Shown here: one piece after another, positions 6,627-19,052 of the stretch | Numbering within the stretch: the stretch's first letter is position 1 | Layout: the number at the start of each line of letters is the position of its first letter | Origin: Enterobacterales bacterium | GTDB taxonomy: Bacteria > Pseudomonadota > Gammaproteobacteria > Enterobacterales > Enterobacteriaceae | DNA length: 64,000 bases | Direction: 5' to 3' | Assembly (NCBI GenBank): GCA_015655145.1 | Contig: JAATFO010000140.1 | Coordinates: 1 to 64,000, forward strand | The notes under the pieces: generated by a model | What the model was told of the DNA's origin: nothing | What the model saw: only the letters and a program-made list of their open reading frames with translations | Databases searched by the model: none | Position numbers and translations under genes: made by a program

Positions 6627-7742
6627 CTACGAAACCCTAGTCGGTTCACCCGCTATCGAGAACCACTGGGCAAACCCATCGATACAGCGCGCAGCGATAG
6701 GAGCGACTCGCTGCCGCATGGTTTCCTCGCAGGCGCTGATGGCTTCATCCCAATGTGGCGTTGAGACCAGTGCTTCCGCCAGTTCGGCAGCATCGAGCAT
6801 GGCCGTGTTCACGCCTGCGCCCAGCGGTGGCATCACGTGCGCTGCATCACCGATCAGCGTGAGTCCTCGTCGATGTGGCCAACGGAAATCTGCAGGCAAC
6901 GCGTTGATCGGTCGTGGGGCCACGATGCGATCCGCATCCGTGATCAGCGCCAGCAGGGAAGGCGCCCATCCATCGAAGCGCTTCACGAGATCGGTAGTGC
7001 TGATGCCGGCCAGCGTTTGATCGGTGCGCCCGGTTTCCTCGGCGGTTGTCTTGAACGCGGCGTAGACGCGGATCGTGGCTTCGCCATTGCGCTGGGCAAA
7101 AATCCCCGCTTCGCCGTGGAGCGAAAACAGGGTGCCATGCCCGACCAGTTCGGCAAGCGCTGGGTGGCGCTGATCCACATCGCGTAGCCATAGCTCCATG
7201 AAGGTCACGCCGGTGTACCTCGGCCGCACGTCGGACAAAGCGGTACGCACGCGTGACCACGCGCCATCGGCGCCGATGACGATGTCGAAGGGACCCAGCG
7301 TGCGGTGCTGCAAGCGGATGTCGTAACGCCCATCCGGGCGATCGGATATGCCCTGCACGGGGGAATCCCATAGGATCGCGCCAGCGTCCAGGCGCTGCAG
7401 CAGGAGCTGACGCAAGACTACACGGTCGACTTCCGGCCGGTTGCCGGTGCCTGGTTCCGGGATTTCGATATGCAACACTTTTCCCGAGACTGCATCAACA
7501 TCCCGGCTTTCCTGGTCCTCATGACGCGCGAGAGACAGGAATTCCTGAAGCAACCCTGCTTTCGCCAAGGCCAGTTGTCCGTCGTCAGGATGCAGGTCCA
7601 GGGAGCCACCTTGATCGCGGCTGGTTGGCGTGGCATCGGCTTCGATGACGGTGATGGGCCAATCGTGCTGACCCAGGATATTTGCGGCGGTCAGGCCCGC
7701 CGGACCGGCACCGATGATGGCGACATTCGGGTATTGCTGCAT
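6627..7742 (-). CDS. FAD-dependent monooxygenase, TetX-like
   Basis: The 371-residue protein belongs to the class A flavoprotein hydroxylases. The FAD-binding GAGPAG is at residues 11-16 after a beta strand. An acidic residue ends the second strand (VIEAD), and the second FAD motif IGDAAHVMPPLGAGVN sits near the C-terminus. The pattern SRDQGGSLDLHPDDGQLAL resembles the TetX group of tetracycline-modifying enzymes and their relatives. Such enzymes add oxygen to aromatic or polyketide substrates using NAD(P)H. The start ATG 7742 has AGAGGA upstream. The gene is divergent from a MarR regulator across a 50-base region with two operators, so it is probably induced by its substrate. Whether it inactivates an antibiotic cannot be told. 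Confidence 0.85.
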   Translation of the reverse strand: MQQYPNVAIIGAGPAGLTAANILGQHDWPITVIEADATPTSRDQGGSLDLHPDDGQLALAKAGLLQEFLSLARHEDQESRDVDAVSGKVLHIEIPEPGTGNRPEVDRVVLRQLLLQRLDAGAILWDSPVQGISDRPDGRYDIRLQHRTLGPFDIVIGADGAWSRVRTALSDVRPRYTGVTFMELWLRDVDQRHPALAELVGHGTLFSLHGEAGIFAQRNGEATIRVYAAFKTTAEETGRTDQTLAGISTTDLVKRFDGWAPSLLALITDADRIVAPRPINALPADFRWPHRRGLTLIGDAAHVMPPLGAGVNTAMLDAAELAEALVSTPHWDEAISACEETMRQRVAPIAARCIDGFAQWFSIAGEPTRVS

Positions 7743-7753
7743 TGTTGATCCTC

Positions 7754-7782
7754 TTGATAATATAGGCTCCTATCAATAATAA
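7754..7782 (+). promoter_or_regulatory. Predicted promoter of the marR-type gene
   Basis: A -35 TTGATA (7754-7759) and a -10 TAATAA (7777-7782) are 17 bases apart. The predicted transcription start, about 7789, lies only a few bases before the ATG at 7793, so the transcript would be leaderless or nearly so. Both operators lie in or beside this promoter. Confidence 0.45.
7762..7773. promoter_or_regulatory. MarR-type operator 1
   Basis: The dyad ATAGG-CT-CCTAT is perfect in both 5-base arms. It lies between the -35 and -10 of the marR promoter and upstream of the divergent flavoprotein gene. A near copy is centred 21 bases away, two helical turns, on the same face of the helix. Confidence 0.7.
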
Positions 7783-7794
7783 ATAGGCACCTAT
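7783..7794. promoter_or_regulatory. MarR-type operator 2, overlapping the marR start codon
   Basis: The dyad ATAGG-CA-CCTAT has the same arms as operator 1. Its last two bases are the first two bases of the marR-type start codon (7793). Binding here would block transcription start and explain autorepression. Confidence 0.7.
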
Positions 7795-8260
7795 GAATAG
7801 TCAAGATGATACAGCTTCCAATGACTGGCTGCCGCACACGCTCCCGATCTTGGTCATCGGTCATGTCGCTAGGCAACTATCGAAACTGGTCGATCAGGAT
7901 CTGAAAGCTGTTGGCATCACGGCGTCGCAGCTTCCGGTGTTGGTGGCGCTGAAAAACGGTGAGAAGCGTACGCAGATGGAGCTGGCCAGAATCGCGGGCG
8001 TCGAACAGCCGAGCATGGCGCAACTGCTGGCACGCATGGAGCGGGATGGGTTGCTTCGCCGAGAACCGTCAGTGATGGATGGACGAAAGAGTCTCGTCAT
8101 GCTTACAGAGACGGCACTTGACCGGCTTGAACCCGGCCGCGCGGCATTGAAGCAAATCGATGCGGAAGTCTGTGCTGGGCTTAGTCAGGAAGAAAGAAAG
8201 CGCTTCCTCAGCACGTTATTGCATATCTCAGAGGTTCTGAATCGGGAAGTACATAGTTGA
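7793..8260 (+). CDS. MarR-family transcriptional regulator
   Basis: The 155-residue protein has a winged helix-turn-helix in the middle (MELARIAGVEQPSMAQLLAR, then a wing with the DGRKSLVMLT pattern) and helices at both ends for dimerisation. MarR proteins usually repress a divergent gene and themselves and release DNA on binding a small phenolic or antibiotic-like ligand. The arrangement fits: a divergent flavoprotein monooxygenase and two matching dyads in the 50 bases between them. There is no Shine-Dalgarno before the ATG, in line with the predicted leaderless transcript. It was probably brought in with the island. Confidence 0.9.
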   Translation: MNSQDDTASNDWLPHTLPILVIGHVARQLSKLVDQDLKAVGITASQLPVLVALKNGEKRTQMELARIAGVEQPSMAQLLARMERDGLLRREPSVMDGRKSLVMLTETALDRLEPGRAALKQIDAEVCAGLSQEERKRFLSTLLHISEVLNREVHS

Positions 8261-8284: not shown

Positions 8285-9499
8285 TCAGTCGCTGCTGACG
8301 TTGTCATCTCGCGGTTGCTTGCCCATGACCACCGTTTGGCGACGTTTCGCAACCAACTCCGCAGCCTCGCGCACCGGCTTGTCCTCGGTATGGACGTAAC
8401 GCATGAACATCGCCACGGTCTTGTGCGCCGTTAGCGCCATTCCGACCTTGACCGGAATACCAGAGTTGGCAATGTCGGTTGCAGAGCGGTGCCGGATGCC
8501 GTGCGTGCCCACATGGATCACACCGGCGCGCTTGAGGATGCGCGTCCAGCCGCCGTAATACTCGCCCGCGGTCAGATGCTGCCCCGGATGGTTCGGTGAC
8601 GGGAGCACATGCGGGCAGCCGCCCTGACGGGGCGCGCTGGATAGCAGCCGATAGGCTTCCTCGCTCAGAGGTTTGGACATGCCACCGGTCTTGCTGTCGG
8701 GCCAAACTACGCGCCGATTCTCCATATCCACCCAATCCCATTGCAAGGTGATGATTTCGGAGCGGCGGCCAGCGAACTCGAATTGCAACCGAATCGCCAG
8801 CGGCAGAACCGCATGATGCAGTCCCAGGCCATCGGTTTCCAGATAGTCGAGATACCGGAACAGCTTGCCCATTTCTTCATCGCTAATGAGGTGGGTGGCT
8901 TGGCCGTTGGGGTACATGGGAACGTGGCGGCACGGGTTGGTGCCGTCCGGCCGTTAGCCCCAGACTTCGGCTAGATTGAACATCTTGCGCATCACGCTGA
9001 AGGTGCGGTTCGCGTCGCCGGGCTTGTGCGCCATCTTCTTCATCGCCCCGGCCACGTCCGGGCATTTCACATCCTGCACTTTCATGTGGCCCAGCATCGG
9101 GATGATGTTGCGCTTGATGCTCTTCTGGTAGCCGACCTGCGTACTGGGCTTGTTGCGCTGCTTGGAGTGATCTTCCATGAACTTTACGTACAGTTCGGCA
9201 ACGGTGGGAGCCTTGCGCGCTTCAGTCTTAGCCGCGCCGGGATCACCACCCCGGCGAACCTGGGCCAGCCATTCCTGCGCCAGCGAGCGGGCCTGTTTGA
9301 CGATCAATTCTCCGTACTGGCCCAAAGCGGGCTTGCGGCGCTCGCCAGCGTTCGTGCAGTACTGGAGCATGAACACCTTGCGGCCCGCTGGGGTAATCTT
9401 GCACAGGAAACCGAGCACCAGCGTATCCCGGAGTTCGACGGCTTGCGCCTGGGGGTGTGCCGCATCGAGAGCGGACTTGGTGAGCTTGATTTTCGCCAT
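8285..9499 (-). pseudogene. Tyrosine integrase of the GC-rich island, one in-frame stop
   Basis: One frame of about 405 codons starts at ATG 9499 (GAGGAG five bases upstream) and ends at 8285. It has a single TAA at 8954-8956, where related proteins have a tyrosine (EVWG, stop, RPDGTNPCRH). The N-terminal arm domain (residues 1-100, DUF4102 type), core-binding domain and catalytic domain are otherwise complete: FAGRRSE, HGIRHR, LTAHKT and the MRYVHTE tyrosine. It stands at the right edge of the GC-rich DNA and was probably the integrase of that element. If the stop is real, the enzyme is split; the second half has an ATG at 8917. Confidence 0.85.
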
Positions 9500-9677
9500 G
9501 ATGACTCCTCGGAACGGCCCGATTTCTGGGAGTCTCATAGGAGCCTTCAGCGGGAAAGTCGGGTCAGGTTTCGGAAAGCACCGGCATATGTTGAAATCGC
9601 CTAACCAATTGATAACCCTTCTGTATCTGGCTTCGGCGAACTTCAGCGAAATGCGGCTCTGGAGTCATGGTGAAATG

Positions 9678-9702
9678 AAAAAACCCCGCCGAAGCAGGGT
9701 TT
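9678..9702 (-). terminator. Rho-independent terminator, minus strand
   Basis: Read on the minus strand: CCCTGC, loop TTCG, GCGGGG, then six T. It lies about 180 bases upstream of the integrase start, near the right end of the GC-rich element. It may belong to whatever gene originally lay to the right, now replaced by an IS1-like remnant. Confidence 0.7.
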
Positions 9703-9762
9703 ATATTAATGATATCTGAGATACACTTATTTATTACCTGTTGCAACGGTGGCTGAATTAGT

Positions 9763-10381
9763 GGTGACTCCAATGAGTAGAACATGTACTTCTCAATGAA
9801 GGCTCCGATGACTTTTTCATGAAGCCCAATCGAACGTGAGAAGCAGATTGTTTTCCGGGCCAGACGTTTAATACGTGTTCTCAATGTCAGGTTGTTGCGC
9901 TCAATACGCTGAGTAAATATCTTGCCGCTCATATAATTACATTTCAGAACTTCTCCGGCTGATTATCATGCCTGTGTTAAGGTCGTGAAATATGTAAGCC
10001 AGTACACCCCCATTTTCGGTGTTAACTCCATACCAGAGCCCGTTCTGCCGATAAAACTCCATGTTGATCAGGCTTGCAGATGAGCGCCGCATCAGCACCC
10101 GGCGATGAAGTTATCCGTCCTGGTGAGCGTTTTTAAAGTACGAATGACAGTATTAATGCCGACTTTCAGCGTTCTGGCCGTATCCCGAACCCAGGCCCGT
10201 TGAAACCCTGTCGGTGCGCGATGCTTTACTCCCCGGCTTACGGGCTTCATAAGCGTAAGTAAGCGGGAACACCCGAAGGTCGTCACGGCCGAGAAATTTG
10301 CTATGGCCTTTGGGATTCAGGCCATGAAAGAACCTAAAAGCGAGCATTACGGGTCATAGGCTGCCAATTAGAGGCATCACC
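9763..10381 (-). mobile_element. IS1-family insertion sequence remnant
   Basis: Fragments of both IS1 proteins are present on the minus strand: InsA (TYAYEARKPGSK, then in another frame VRDTARTLKVGINTVIRTLK) and InsB (LWYGVNTENGGVLAYIF, TQRIERNNLTLRTRIKRLAR). The ends resemble IS1 termini (GGTGATGCC at 10381 read inward, GGTGACTCCAAT at 9763). The element is about 620 bases, shorter than the usual 768, with several frame breaks, so it is dead. No clear target-site duplication was found. Confidence 0.8.
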
Positions 10382-11870: not shown

Positions 11871-13004
11871 ATGGTAATCTACTGGTACGTAAGCATTTTC
11901 ATATCCGCGATAGCCATGGTAGAAGTATTTCTTTCGAAGCAAGAGAACACCATTAAATTAAGGTTATACCTTTTTATTCTTTGTGTTTTTCTGCTTTTTA
12001 CCTTCGGAGGGATCCGTGGACTTGGTACAGGATTAGATGACTTCCAATACAGATCTTTCTTCACCGAATTCAGAGCAAAAATAGCGGTTGAAGGATTATT
12101 ACAAACCATTAGCGATTTTCGTTTTGAACCTGGTATTTATCTTATTGCATACCCGGTAAGTGTTTTTACAAAAAACCCAGATATTTTCATGTATGTTTTC
12201 TGCTTAATTGCAGTATGTGTTAATGCGTATTATTTTAAAAAGTTATCACCATTACCCACTGTCGCTTTAGCTATTTACTCAGCTCATTTATTTATAAACA
12301 AAGACATTAATCAAATAAGGTTTGGATTAAGCTCAGCGTTTTTTCTTGGCTTTGTATATCATGTATACAATAAAAATAAGTTAAAATCACTTTGGCTATT
12401 TATATTATCATTCATAAGTCATGCCACCGGGATTACCGCTATTTTAATACCTTTAGCATTAATTATAAGAAAAAATAAATATATTCCAACAATCATCGTA
12501 TTGGCCAGCATTCCAATAGCTTTCATGGGAAGTCAGATTATTATCTCTGTGTTATCTGAACACTTAGGTGCTCTCGGGGAACGTGCCATGTCTTATTCCA
12601 ATCGAGATTCAGCACAAGAACAAGGTATACTGACATTATCTAACATTAAAAATATCATATTAGTTATCGTCTTTAGTTATATATTACTGAGCAATAAATT
12701 GAAAAATGAAAACCCGGAGAAATTTTCTTTTTTCTATATTCTGGTTATAAGTTTTGCTATCGGAAGCGGGCTAAGAATTGCATTACAAGATTATGCTTCA
12801 GGAGGAAGACTAGCCAATTATTTACTGCAAACAGAACCGGTATTAATCTCTATATGTATATATGAAACAAAGAAATTAAAGAAGATGGCAGCGATCGTAA
12901 TTACGCTAATGATGGTATTATATTATCTGTATTATAATACTATAGCGCATAACCAATCGATCGAAGGATACACAGTATCCCCTACGTTCCAAATAGTTAA
13001 CTAA
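11871..13004 (+). CDS. EpsG-family / Wzy-like polysaccharide polymerase
   Basis: The 377-residue integral membrane protein has about ten hydrophobic segments over its whole length. Family patterns of EpsG proteins are visible: GGIRGLGTGLDDFQYRSFF near residue 46 and DINQIRFGLSSAFF near residue 145. EpsG-type proteins polymerise repeat units of exopolysaccharide or O-antigen at the inner membrane. The gene is AT-rich, as usual for Wzy-type genes, and follows repeat copy A. The ribosome site is weak (AGAAATG). No other assembly genes (wza, wzc, wzx, glycosyltransferases) lie beside it, so it may serve a pathway encoded elsewhere or be a stranded gene. Confidence 0.8.
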   Translation: MVIYWYVSIFISAIAMVEVFLSKQENTIKLRLYLFILCVFLLFTFGGIRGLGTGLDDFQYRSFFTEFRAKIAVEGLLQTISDFRFEPGIYLIAYPVSVFTKNPDIFMYVFCLIAVCVNAYYFKKLSPLPTVALAIYSAHLFINKDINQIRFGLSSAFFLGFVYHVYNKNKLKSLWLFILSFISHATGITAILIPLALIIRKNKYIPTIIVLASIPIAFMGSQIIISVLSEHLGALGERAMSYSNRDSAQEQGILTLSNIKNIILVIVFSYILLSNKLKNENPEKFSFFYILVISFAIGSGLRIALQDYASGGRLANYLLQTEPVLISICIYETKKLKKMAAIVITLMMVLYYLYYNTIAHNQSIEGYTVSPTFQIVN

Positions 13005-13697: not shown

Positions 13698-13732
13698 AAA
13701 AAAAGACAATTGCCGGACAAGGCCCGGCAATT
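13698..13732 (-). terminator. Rho-independent terminator of the acyltransferase gene
   Basis: Minus strand: a 9-base perfect stem AATTGCCGG / CCGGCAATT, loop GCCTTGT, then GTC and seven T. It lies just after the acyltransferase stop codon. Confidence 0.85.
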
Positions 13733-13750
13733 ATAGCAAGTAAATTTAAG

Positions 13751-14779
13751 TCAAATAACAGATGTTTTTACTTCCATTTCTGGAATTTTTTTCCTTTTTA
13801 GAAACCTGTTTTCCAGGAAATTCCACGACAATATTGCCAAAGTCAACGAAATTAAAATGGTCAGGAGCAATCCGACGAAAGGGTGTCTATCATATATACC
13901 TAAATATATTAATATCTGAATAACTGGCCAATGGTATAAATATAATCCATAAGAAAAATCACCATATTTACCAATAGGTATCTCTTTAAACACTCCGGTA
14001 CAGAACAGGATCACAACAGAAGAGTATGCAATAGGTTGTATAAAATGCGTTAACTCCGTCTTTTTCGTCACGAAGAAAATAACCAATGATACTATTGTTA
14101 TTATTTTCAGTTGTTTGAATATATTTTCATTTGTGGCCAGCAATGTTCCAAAGAAGAAATAACTTGACAAGCTAATGAATTGTTTTGCCAACGTATCAGC
14201 TTTCCCGCCTGAATAAATATAAGTAAAGAAATAAAACCATGCGCAGGATATTAAGTAAATTACCACGTACGATAATAATGGTTTTTTCTTAAGCAGCGGA
14301 ATCAAAAAAGGTAATAATACATACAGTGCTATTTCAGATTTTATCGTCCAAAGAGAACCATCCATCGGTTGGTTTGGGTTGTGTTCAAACACACCAGGTA
14401 ATGATGGCTGTATAAAGTTCATAAAAGAAAAGTTAGCCAGAATATATTTTATTGTTTCTTTGTTTGTTATAAAATCTGATAAAGGAAGGGATGTAACGAA
14501 CACACCGATGATCAGGCACATTATTATTGTAAAAATATAGGCGGGTAAAATTCTTTTACATCTCTTTGTTATATAACTAGAAAGCGACGAGCTCCGGATA
14601 TAACTTTTTGCTATTAAAAAACCACTTATTACGAAGAAGCCCTTAACAGCAAAATCACTGTCCAAAAAATATGTCAAAAATCGAAGTTCTGCATTTCTTG
14701 TGACTTCCGCTGAATGAACCAGCAAAACTATAAATGCCATGACCAGCCGAACTATATCAAAATTATTTTTTTCTTTCAT
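13751..14779 (-). CDS. Acyltransferase family 3 (OafA-type O-acetyltransferase)
   Basis: The polytopic membrane protein of about 342 residues has the family signature at its start: NFDIVRLVMAFIVLLVHS, in which an arginine is followed ten residues later by the active histidine (R-X10-H). Later come FFVISGFLIAKSY and MDGSLWTIKSE, also typical. Such proteins transfer acetyl or other acyl groups to extracellular sugars, most often O-antigen or capsule. There are two candidate starts in one frame, ATG 14791 and ATG 14779, separated exactly by a run of nine G (14781-14789). Loss or gain of one G would disconnect the upstream ATG. It ends before a clear terminator. Confidence 0.88.
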   Translation of the reverse strand: MKEKNNFDIVRLVMAFIVLLVHSAEVTRNAELRFLTYFLDSDFAVKGFFVISGFLIAKSYIRSSSLSSYITKRCKRILPAYIFTIIMCLIIGVFVTSLPLSDFITNKETIKYILANFSFMNFIQPSLPGVFEHNPNQPMDGSLWTIKSEIALYVLLPFLIPLLKKKPLLSYVVIYLISCAWFYFFTYIYSGGKADTLAKQFISLSSYFFFGTLLATNENIFKQLKIITIVSLVIFFVTKKTELTHFIQPIAYSSVVILFCTGVFKEIPIGKYGDFSYGLYLYHWPVIQILIYLGIYDRHPFVGLLLTILISLTLAILSWNFLENRFLKRKKIPEMEVKTSVI

Positions 14780-14780
14780 T

Positions 14781-14789
14781 CCCCCCCCC
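14781..14789 (-). repeat. G9 homopolymer between two candidate start codons of the acyltransferase
   Basis: Nine consecutive C on the plus strand (G on the coding strand) lie between ATG 14791 and ATG 14779. At this length the two ATGs are in frame; at eight or ten they are not. The run would also alter the ribosome-binding context of the downstream ATG. Confidence 0.9.
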
Positions 14790-14799
14790 ATTCTTTTCA

Positions 14800-15715
14800 G
14801 GAATTATTTATTAAAAATTATCCCTGTTGTTTTTAACAACAAAAGGGTGAATAACATTGGTGACAATCTGTTTAAAACAATAAAAAACCATGTCCATTAT
14901 TCTAATTACACTAGTTGCACACTACTTTGTAACATTTAAGTTATATTATTGATACAACAAAATATTATTGTCAAGAACTTTTGTTTTTGTTAGGAATTTT
15001 CTCAAGAAAATAATCAATCTGAAAATGTAACAAAAAGATAATGCACAGGATCAGAACTTATGCCCTTCCTGAATATGTTGATCAGCTATCACCCTTTGAT
15101 ACAAAGCAAGTGTCAAAATGAGCATAAGGAACAGACCTTGTAATTAAGATAAAGCTTACGGTTTCACTGTTCGAGTCAGCATAAACATTGATCGGTTGCA
15201 AGGACACCGACTTTGCATATTCAGATGAAACATTCGTTGTGGCTTTCGGGAAAGGGAATACGCTGGAGGAAGTATATACACCATAAGTACACGCCACACG
15301 CGAAGTACAGACGGGTGACTGCTGTAAAGACGATGAACAAAAGTTTCCCATACGTGCAAAAAGTCATCAGTGCTGGTTATTTTATGCATATGATCATATT
15401 TCTATGCACATTTTTTCCTTCTGAAGTGCCGGCTGAAACCGCATCTTCTGCCATCACTGAGTGTACTCAACACCGTATCGTAGATAACAGGCACGCATAA
15501 GGTTAATAAGTTATACCGTTTGCAAAAAATATATCTAATAGAATGAGTGGCATAACCTAAATCCGCTGATACAACGGATGATGTGTTTTTAACCTCTGCC
15601 ATAAAGTCTGATAAAATCATTAGCAACTATCTGACAATTCATCACGCTTATTGAACCAGTGTTACACGCTATATTCCTATAAATATCAGCCAATTCTGTT
15701 GTCAACCACGACAGA
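14800..15715. other. Long AT-rich intergenic region
   Basis: About 900 bases hold no recognisable gene. The longest frames (15082-15351 minus, 15213-15500 plus) lack ribosome sites and overlap one another on opposite strands. The region probably holds decayed DNA and the promoters of the flanking genes. Confidence 0.4.
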
Positions 15716-15899
15716 ATGAAAATTAAAAAAATGATTATTGATAATAAACCTGTTGTCGACAGTGGCAACTGGCAGCATGTGAATTATACTTACTTTCATC
15801 AGTCCAATGAACCAGTCAGACTGGCATGAAATTATCCCCATAACAGAATGGCAGATCTTTGATATAGATAGGTTCGCAGTTTACAGACATAAAAAATAA
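15716..15899 (+). pseudogene. Short unrecognised gene broken by one frameshift
   Basis: A frame from ATG 15716 reads MKIKKMIIDNKPVVDSGNWQ and continues to VRLA before TGA 15827-15829. An overlapping frame continues with HEIIPITEWQIFDIDRFAVY to TAA 15897-15899. Both halves have credible protein composition and join with a single base change in length near 15822, giving about 60 residues. No family is recognised. The idea that it was once one gene is inference. Confidence 0.35.
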
Positions 15900-16164
15900 A
15901 CTTCACCAACGTTCAAACCAATATACAAAAGTTATTAATAACACTGATAGTATTGCAAATATTATACCTGGAACTCTATCTGGATACCGTCGTGAAAAAA
16001 CAATACGGAAGATTATTACGGCATGTAAACAAGCAATTTCTCACATTAAAATAAGAGATGTAATTCCATAACCAATTGAAATAATTTACTTGTTACTGAA
16101 AATATTCATGAACAATCTATGCTGAACAGCTCACTCACCCCAGGAAAATTAATGGAGAATAACC
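15900..16164. other. AT-rich leader region of the tailspike-like gene
   Basis: Bases between the broken small gene and ATG 16165 are very AT-rich and hold no gene. The promoter of the following gene is expected here but cannot be fixed. Confidence 0.3.
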
Positions 16165-18113: not shown

Positions 18114-19052
18114 TTATTTAATCGCCTGTTGCCAGTTAAAAAACATCTCAGGCCAGTATTTTATCGCCCCTTTATTCGCACTACCAATAGAAAATCCATG
18201 ACCACCCTGATGGAACAGATGCATTTCAACATTTATTTTATTTTTATTTATTGCATTAAAAAGTAAGACGGAATTTTTCGACGATGCGACACCATCATCT
18301 AACGCATGAACGATAAAGGTGGGCGGTGTTTCTTTTGTTACCAGTAATTCCTGTGAGTATTCCTCAATAGTCTGTTCACCAGCATTTTTACCAATCAATG
18401 CCGACCGAGTGCCTTTATGGGTGATGCCATCTTTCAGGGAAATAACAGGGTAGATCAAAGCAGAAAAATCTGGCCTGGCCGTAACTTTATCGATATCATC
18501 AACGGCATCATGATATTTTTTGTCAAAGTTATTACTTAAATTTGCTGCTAAATATCCCCCGGCAGAAAATCCCATGACACCAATCGATTGTTTATTGATA
18601 GCGTAATAATCCGCTTTGAATCTTATCAATCGTAAAGCTCGTTGAACGTCGGAAAAAGAATCATCTCTGGCATTAATATCGCCATCATGTGGCAGCCGAT
18701 AGATTAAAATAAAGGATGAATAACCATGATTACTCATTTTTTTCGCCACATTAATTCCCTCAGCATCCATCATTATATAACTGAATCCTCCACCGGGAAC
18801 TATTAATATCGCTGAGTGGTTACTCTTTCCTTTGGGTGGTATATATATCAATTCCGGGGAAATAACTTTTTTCACAGCTCTGTTTTTTACAGCATTATTC
18901 TTACTAAAATCAATGCTTTTATAACTTCCCGCTTCAGCCTCTGTTCCCCATAAAGATATTTTTTCATAAGAAAACGAAGTCACTGGGTAAACCAATATAA
19001 GAAAACAGAGGTAAACTTTAAAAAGACTTTTTTTCAAATTTAAAAAAAACAT
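18114..19052 (-). CDS. Secreted alpha/beta hydrolase, acetylesterase-like
   Basis: The 312-residue protein has an N-terminal signal peptide (basic start, hydrophobic residues 10-25, cut probable after SFS). Then come the oxyanion segment VPGGGF (85-90), the nucleophile elbow GFSAGG with Ser163, an acid in HALDDGV and the histidine in GGHGF near the C-terminus. The arrangement is that of small secreted carbohydrate esterases (acetylxylan- or pectin-acetylesterase-like, BD-FAE type). It may remove acetyl groups from plant or bacterial polysaccharide in the periplasm or outside. It lies in the same segment as the acyltransferase, so the two may act in opposition; this is inference. AT-rich, no lesion. 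Confidence 0.8.
   Translation of the reverse strand: MFFLNLKKSLFKVYLCFLILVYPVTSFSYEKISLWGTEAEAGSYKSIDFSKNNAVKNRAVKKVISPELIYIPPKGKSNHSAILIVPGGGFSYIMMDAEGINVAKKMSNHGYSSFILIYRLPHDGDINARDDSFSDVQRALRLIRFKADYYAINKQSIGVMGFSAGGYLAANLSNNFDKKYHDAVDDIDKVTARPDFSALIYPVISLKDGITHKGTRSALIGKNAGEQTIEEYSQELLVTKETPPTFIVHALDDGVASSKNSVLLFNAINKNKINVEMHLFHQGGHGFSIGSANKGAIKYWPEMFFNWQQAIK

Follow-up and report, generated by a model that had tools for sequence, protein, structure and literature searches.

A run of nine G in front of an O-acyltransferase gene is best read as an over-extended Shine-Dalgarno (SD) sequence for the conserved start codon ATG 14779; the acyltransferase would form, with a Wzy polymerase and an acetyl esterase, an unlinked module for an EPS of the stewartan/amylovoran type. 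We give this combined reading a probability of roughly 0.62. The run would direct initiation at ATG 14779 of an EPS O-acyltransferase, and a second ATG at 14791 would be a little-used by-product. Slippage of the run, if it occurs, would shift the SD-to-start spacing by one base and change expression slightly, without a frameshift. The acyltransferase is expected to work with the neighbouring Wzy and acetyl esterase (together, the trio), which would polymerise and acetylate an EPS whose main cluster lies elsewhere in the genome and has no wzy. Sequence, homology, start conservation and gene presence or absence in the genomes searched are the observations behind this reading; SD use, the substrate, the effect of length changes, and EPS structure and acetylation are predicted from them. 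Positions are those of the window, the whole stretch of 64 kb that was analysed. The features at the acyltransferase gene are as follows.

13751..14779, minus strand: membrane O-acyltransferase (PF01757), 342 amino acids from the conserved start; 107.5 bits, cut-off 31
14777..14779, minus strand: ATG 14779, the conserved start codon (MKEKNNFD), aligned with the starts of the three close homologs described below
14781..14789, minus strand: run of nine G, from the sequence; read as an over-extended SD for ATG 14779
14789..14791, minus strand: ATG 14791, a non-conserved, in-frame upstream ATG that shares a G with the run, from SD and homolog comparison
14945..14974, minus strand: promoter-like TTGACA-18-AATAAT about 165 bp upstream of ATG 14779, from a consensus scan (11 of 12 positions) that found 20 such sites in the region where 14.0 are expected
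13706..13734, minus strand: terminator-like hairpin plus T run 3' of the acyltransferase, from a consensus scan (13-pair stem)

The gene was described in an earlier note on this DNA as a complete O-acyltransferase with the family signature, and the description stands. The Acyl_transf_3 profile (PF01757) covers the protein at full length (profile positions 3-323 of 326) with a score above the curated cut-off. R15 and H26 of an R-X10-H motif, which we take to be the conserved Arg/His motif of this O-acyltransferase family, are invariant in all eight aligned proteins, as are 47 columns in total; that alignment excludes three weaker relatives (L006, L007 and L030). Searches at the DNA level gave no match to the locus in a collection of 5,426 E. 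coli genomes and none in phages. Above strict E-value limits, the acyltransferase was found in 4/392 genomes of the family and 2/394 of the order, own genome included, and all matches other than that of the own genome are at most 40% identical; the genus is represented by this one genome. Plasmids carry one relative at 64% identity and four below 60%, phages a single one at 32% (Halomonas phage), and the viral contigs searched have none. Two of these relatives are cargo of small plasmids, one of 7.9 kb from Klebsiella quasipneumoniae (L028, NZ_CP092402.1, 1226-2263) and one of 4.3 kb from Aliivibrio salmonicida (L029, NC_011316.1, 2335-3300).

Around the tract the minus strand reads CTGAAAAGA ATG GGG GGG GGA ATG AAA GAA, with AAAAGA directly 5' of ATG 14791. 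Nine G at 14781-14789 ahead of the acyltransferase are thereby confirmed. The G of ATG 14791 is the first of the nine. The run had been said to sit directly against ATG 14779, which is not strictly so: a single A at 14780 separates the two. Frame arithmetic bears out that translation from ATG 14791 enters the acyltransferase frame with nine G (MGGGMKEK...) and not with eight or ten: at eight G its ORF ends after 4 codons with a TGA that overlaps ATG 14779, and at ten G a stop follows after 9 codons. The frame upstream of ATG 14791 is open for only four codons before a stop, and the frame of ATG 14779 is independent of the length of the run.

Which of the two ATGs starts translation can be judged from the closest relatives. 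By tblastn these are the Enterobacteriaceae metagenome-assembled genome UBA2655 (L003) and Pantoea dispersa (L004), the two closest chromosomal relatives at 67-68% identity, and the ColRNAI-type K. quasipneumoniae plasmid NZ_CP092402.1 (L028) at 64%; in the multiple alignment the values are 67%, 65% and 63%, respectively. The start codons of all three correspond to ATG 14779 (proteins MKEKNNFD, MNEKNNFD and MNAKNNFD), and none of the three has an equivalent upstream ATG that is open into the gene. In leaders read by eye, the upstream ATGs visible in UBA2655 and P. dispersa are out of frame, and an ATG 15 bases upstream in the plasmid is immediately followed by a stop. A comparable G run is absent from all eight relatives whose leaders were inspected, these three included. 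ATG 14791 is thus not a conserved start, as judged from aligned sequences, although initiation may occur there.

SD pairing points to the same codon. In a duplex model that leaves mRNA folding out, the anti-SD duplex for ATG 14779 weakens from -10.0 to -8.9 and then -7.8 kcal/mol as the spacing grows from 3 to 4 and 5 bases, and ATG 14791 has no SD (best pairing +0.4 kcal/mol). The three close homologs pair at their own starts with only -1.3, -0.9 and -2.7 kcal/mol. Initiation does not always track SD strength. The stretch that gives -7.8 kcal/mol contains no more than five of the nine G; the gain or loss of one G should therefore leave an adequate SD. Since ATG 14791 lacks an SD and the run pairs in register for ATG 14779, a change in length should tune translation rather than abolish it. 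The claim that the reading frame set by the run matters is therefore not supported: the three close homologs start at ATG 14779, which is always in frame, and the other ATG has no SD.

How unusual such a tract is was assessed in the window, the genome and the family. No other G/C run in the 64 kb exceeds 7, and for C9 on the plus strand the run statistics of the window itself extrapolate to about 0.085 expected occurrences. Genome-wide there are nine runs of at least nine G in 4.18 Mb (20 overlapping matches, merged by us), or about 0.14 per 64 kb. Two are G14 runs at contig ends (the end of C5, L008, and the start of C113, L019), at or at most 2 bases from the end, and look like sequencing or assembly artefacts. 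A G10 lies inside ftsZ (L026, 1501-1510) and a G9 inside hflC (L018, 1501-1509); of the others, one falls in an ORF with a methyltransferase domain and three in ORFs that are short or unnamed, and the ninth is the tract studied here. Because two of the nine runs lie inside ftsZ and hflC, tract length alone is not evidence. The same counts led us to reject the idea of a unique hypermutable tract.

Compared with other genomes, G runs are somewhat more numerous here than usual: the 20 overlapping G9 matches exceed those of 26 of 29 others (range 0-61), and G9 runs are present in 23 of 30 genomes, own included. Of 372 family genomes, 112 have runs of at least nine G that end 1-7 bases before an ATG (243 matches), and 85 have a reversed control pattern (140 matches); without the outlier G026 the totals are 224 and 138, and one run can count several times in them. 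Such runs are mildly enriched before ATG and recur in the family. In the own genome the pattern matches twice, at the studied tract and inside hflC, and so does the control.

These backgrounds lend some weight to the view that the run is a neutral accident, either a chance string of G without regulatory effect or a slightly wrong consensus length in a draft assembly. Nine such runs in 4.18 Mb, two of them artefact-like and contig-terminal, and the occurrence of G9 runs in most of the genomes compared are what this view would lead one to expect. However, the run occupies the place of an SD ahead of a complete gene, its anti-SD pairing is far above that of the leaders of the three close homologs, and it lies well within a contig of 65 kb. 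We consider such an accident unlikely.

Phase variation, in which slippage of the run switches or strongly grades the acyltransferase and yields cells with and without EPS acetylation, would require either that much initiation occurs at ATG 14791 or that the exact SD spacing is critical. The frame logic is exact, with ATG 14791 stopping after a few codons at eight and at ten G. The tract adjoins the start of a gene for surface modification in a mobile-looking island, the genome is comparatively rich in G9 matches, and the tract length is that from which a phase-variation screen counts poly-G/C tracts (PMC5953494). As the earlier note had it, phase-variable acetylation of surface sugars has precedent in other bacteria; one case is Haemophilus influenzae (PMC11868660). 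Against this, no change in length takes ATG 14779 out of frame, ATG 14791 has no SD, the tract is absent in the three close homologs, and comparable tracts lie inside ftsZ and hflC. Phase variation is possible, unsupported and, in our estimate, decidedly unlikely. Coupling through a leader peptide, whereby translation begins at ATG 14791 and the ORF from there is the acyltransferase gene at nine G, allows reinitiation at the TGA overlap at eight and ends downstream at ten, agrees with how the reading frames are arranged, but it needs efficient initiation at a non-conserved ATG without an SD and is highly improbable.

The second part of the preferred reading, the unlinked EPS module, concerns the island in which the acyltransferase lies. 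The GC content of the island is lower than that of the window (42% versus 50%), and its further features are as follows.

8285..9538, minus strand: phage-type tyrosine integrase split over two frames, from ORFs and profile matches; island edge
11871..13004, plus strand: EpsG-type Wzy polymerase (PF14897, 108.3 bits), the sole such homolog found in the genome
16165..17892, plus strand: tailspike-like EPS depolymerase (WceF/phage type; phrog_4250, 4.4e-144), without the N-terminal signal and head region
18114..19052, minus strand: alpha/beta-hydrolase acetyl esterase, the third gene of the trio; PaeX-like, under the cut-off of that model

In UBA2655 and P. dispersa the esterase, wzy and the acyltransferase are adjacent; their Wzy proteins are 70% and 65% identical to that of the window, and both esterase partners are 53% identical. 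The order of the trio in the window differs, and the tailspike-like depolymerase lies between two of its genes. The depolymerase matches PDB 6tgf (E 3e-92, chain residues 173-733) and is 34-35% identical to Erwinia phage depolymerases. The split integrase and, beside it, a transposase fragment (9564-9932) flank the trio region on one side. Among eight island proteins scanned, the only genes bearing on a prophage were these two and the tailspike-like gene, and we rejected a reading of the island as an intact prophage, as only fragments are present. Two further observations concern the surroundings. Beside the integrase, at 6627-8260, an FAD-monooxygenase-like gene is divergent from a MarR-like regulator (ORF reading only). 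About 1.1 kb between the acyltransferase and the tailspike-like gene (15000-16160) holds no ORF of at least 100 amino acids and is possibly a remnant of decayed genes.

The genome's own EPS cluster was located through Wza on contig C60 (L050, G000:C60:2500-22400). By tblastn it matches locus L045 in GalT, wza, wzc, three glycosyltransferases and wceF; gene names other than wza and wceF follow our ORF reading, which also gave wzx-like, pyruvyl-transferase-like, galF-like and galE-like genes. A second, full-length depolymerase copy, WceF, sits in this cluster. The cluster has no wzy of the EpsG type, wzc and GT1 being about 105 bp apart, and the other L050 ORFs of 230 amino acids or more, read by eye, include no further polymerase-like gene. 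The possibility that this cluster has an EpsG-type wzy was accordingly rejected. The EPS cluster of UBA2655 (L052) likewise lacks wzy. Both genomes encode a single wzy homolog at E <= 1e-5, that of the trio, and in the own genome it is on contig C52, outside the EPS cluster on C60.

Among the 392 family genomes, Wzc is 71-79% identical in nine besides the own and at most 63% in the rest of the matches listed. All nine have a wzy homolog 190-1161 bp from wzc, which is 45-47% identical to that of the window in four and 33-36% in five; the adjacency was seen directly in L045, L046, L048 and L053. Downstream of wzy, L045 also carries, by our reading, genes for an SGNH-like hydrolase and then for another acyltransferase. 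L046 shares this arrangement, which indicates that polymerase, deacylase and acylase can occur together. The hydrolase/acyltransferase pair has no match in L048 and L053. In one further genome (G309), a 3-kb contig bears a wzy homolog (38%) and Wzc reaches only 54%; this genome is neutral for the pattern.

The absence of wzy from the cluster in two trio genomes, and its presence beside wzc in 9/9 others, lead us to infer that the trio is an unlinked polymerisation and acetylation module; the wzy-less pattern covers two genomes (the own one and UBA2655), and P. dispersa also has the trio. The small island thus seems to supply the polymerase that is missing from the slime-polysaccharide cluster, with the qualification that the own genome is a draft, 91.7% complete, so an unrelated wzy might be missed. 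Among the titles and abstract beginnings of the literature matches listed, we found no report of a stewartan cluster lacking wzy; this counts as weak evidence. A bolder version, a mobile 'EPS seroconversion' module, holds that the island swapped the cluster polymerase for an unlinked Wzy that brings along an O-acyltransferase and a matching deacetylase, and that a slippery poly-G ribosome binding site dials acetylation from cell to cell and thereby alters sensitivity to phage tailspikes; we regard this as quite improbable.

If the trio does polymerise and acetylate a stewartan-type EPS, then polymerase and decoration would be swappable as one unlinked, horizontally spread unit, and the swap of such a unit for slime polysaccharide would parallel what phages do for O antigen. 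For the tract itself the lesson is one of caution: a string of G next to a start codon does not alone make a switch, and what counts is which start is conserved and for which start the SD is in register.

Several known systems can be compared with this locus. The run just reaches the poly-G/C cut-off of at least nine used in a Neisseria phase-variation screen (PMC5953494), and a change in its length breaks the frame for ATG 14791 only, leaving the conserved ATG 14779 unaffected. The LOS O-acetyltransferase gene oafA of non-typeable H. influenzae is phase variable (PMC11868660). Like oafA, whose on/off state changes the surface, the gene in the window encodes a putative surface-sugar acyltransferase; here, by contrast, the run lies outside the conserved coding sequence and its length does not affect the conserved start.

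Erwinia ams is the amylovoran EPS cluster. The stewartan EPS cluster of Pantoea stewartii is wce-I (PMC7949094). Like both clusters, the own genome has GalT, wza, wzc, glycosyltransferases, wceF and a wzx-like gene; unlike them, its cluster lacks wzy, and the single homolog in the genome is part of a separate island, together with an acyltransferase and an esterase. The tailspike-like protein resembles WceF of P. stewartii and the Erwinia phage depolymerases (33-35% identity, own full-length WceF included) and differs from them in having no N-terminal head region.

The seroconversion cassette of Pseudomonas phage D3 combines a new Wzy, an O-acetylase and a polymerase inhibitor. PMC8787464 mentions that D3 carries a cassette. 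Unlike the D3 unit, the island is no intact prophage, the cluster wzy is missing rather than inhibited, and the likely target is EPS, not O antigen. Like the D3 cassette, it is a mobile-looking unit that pairs a polymerase with an O-acyltransferase.
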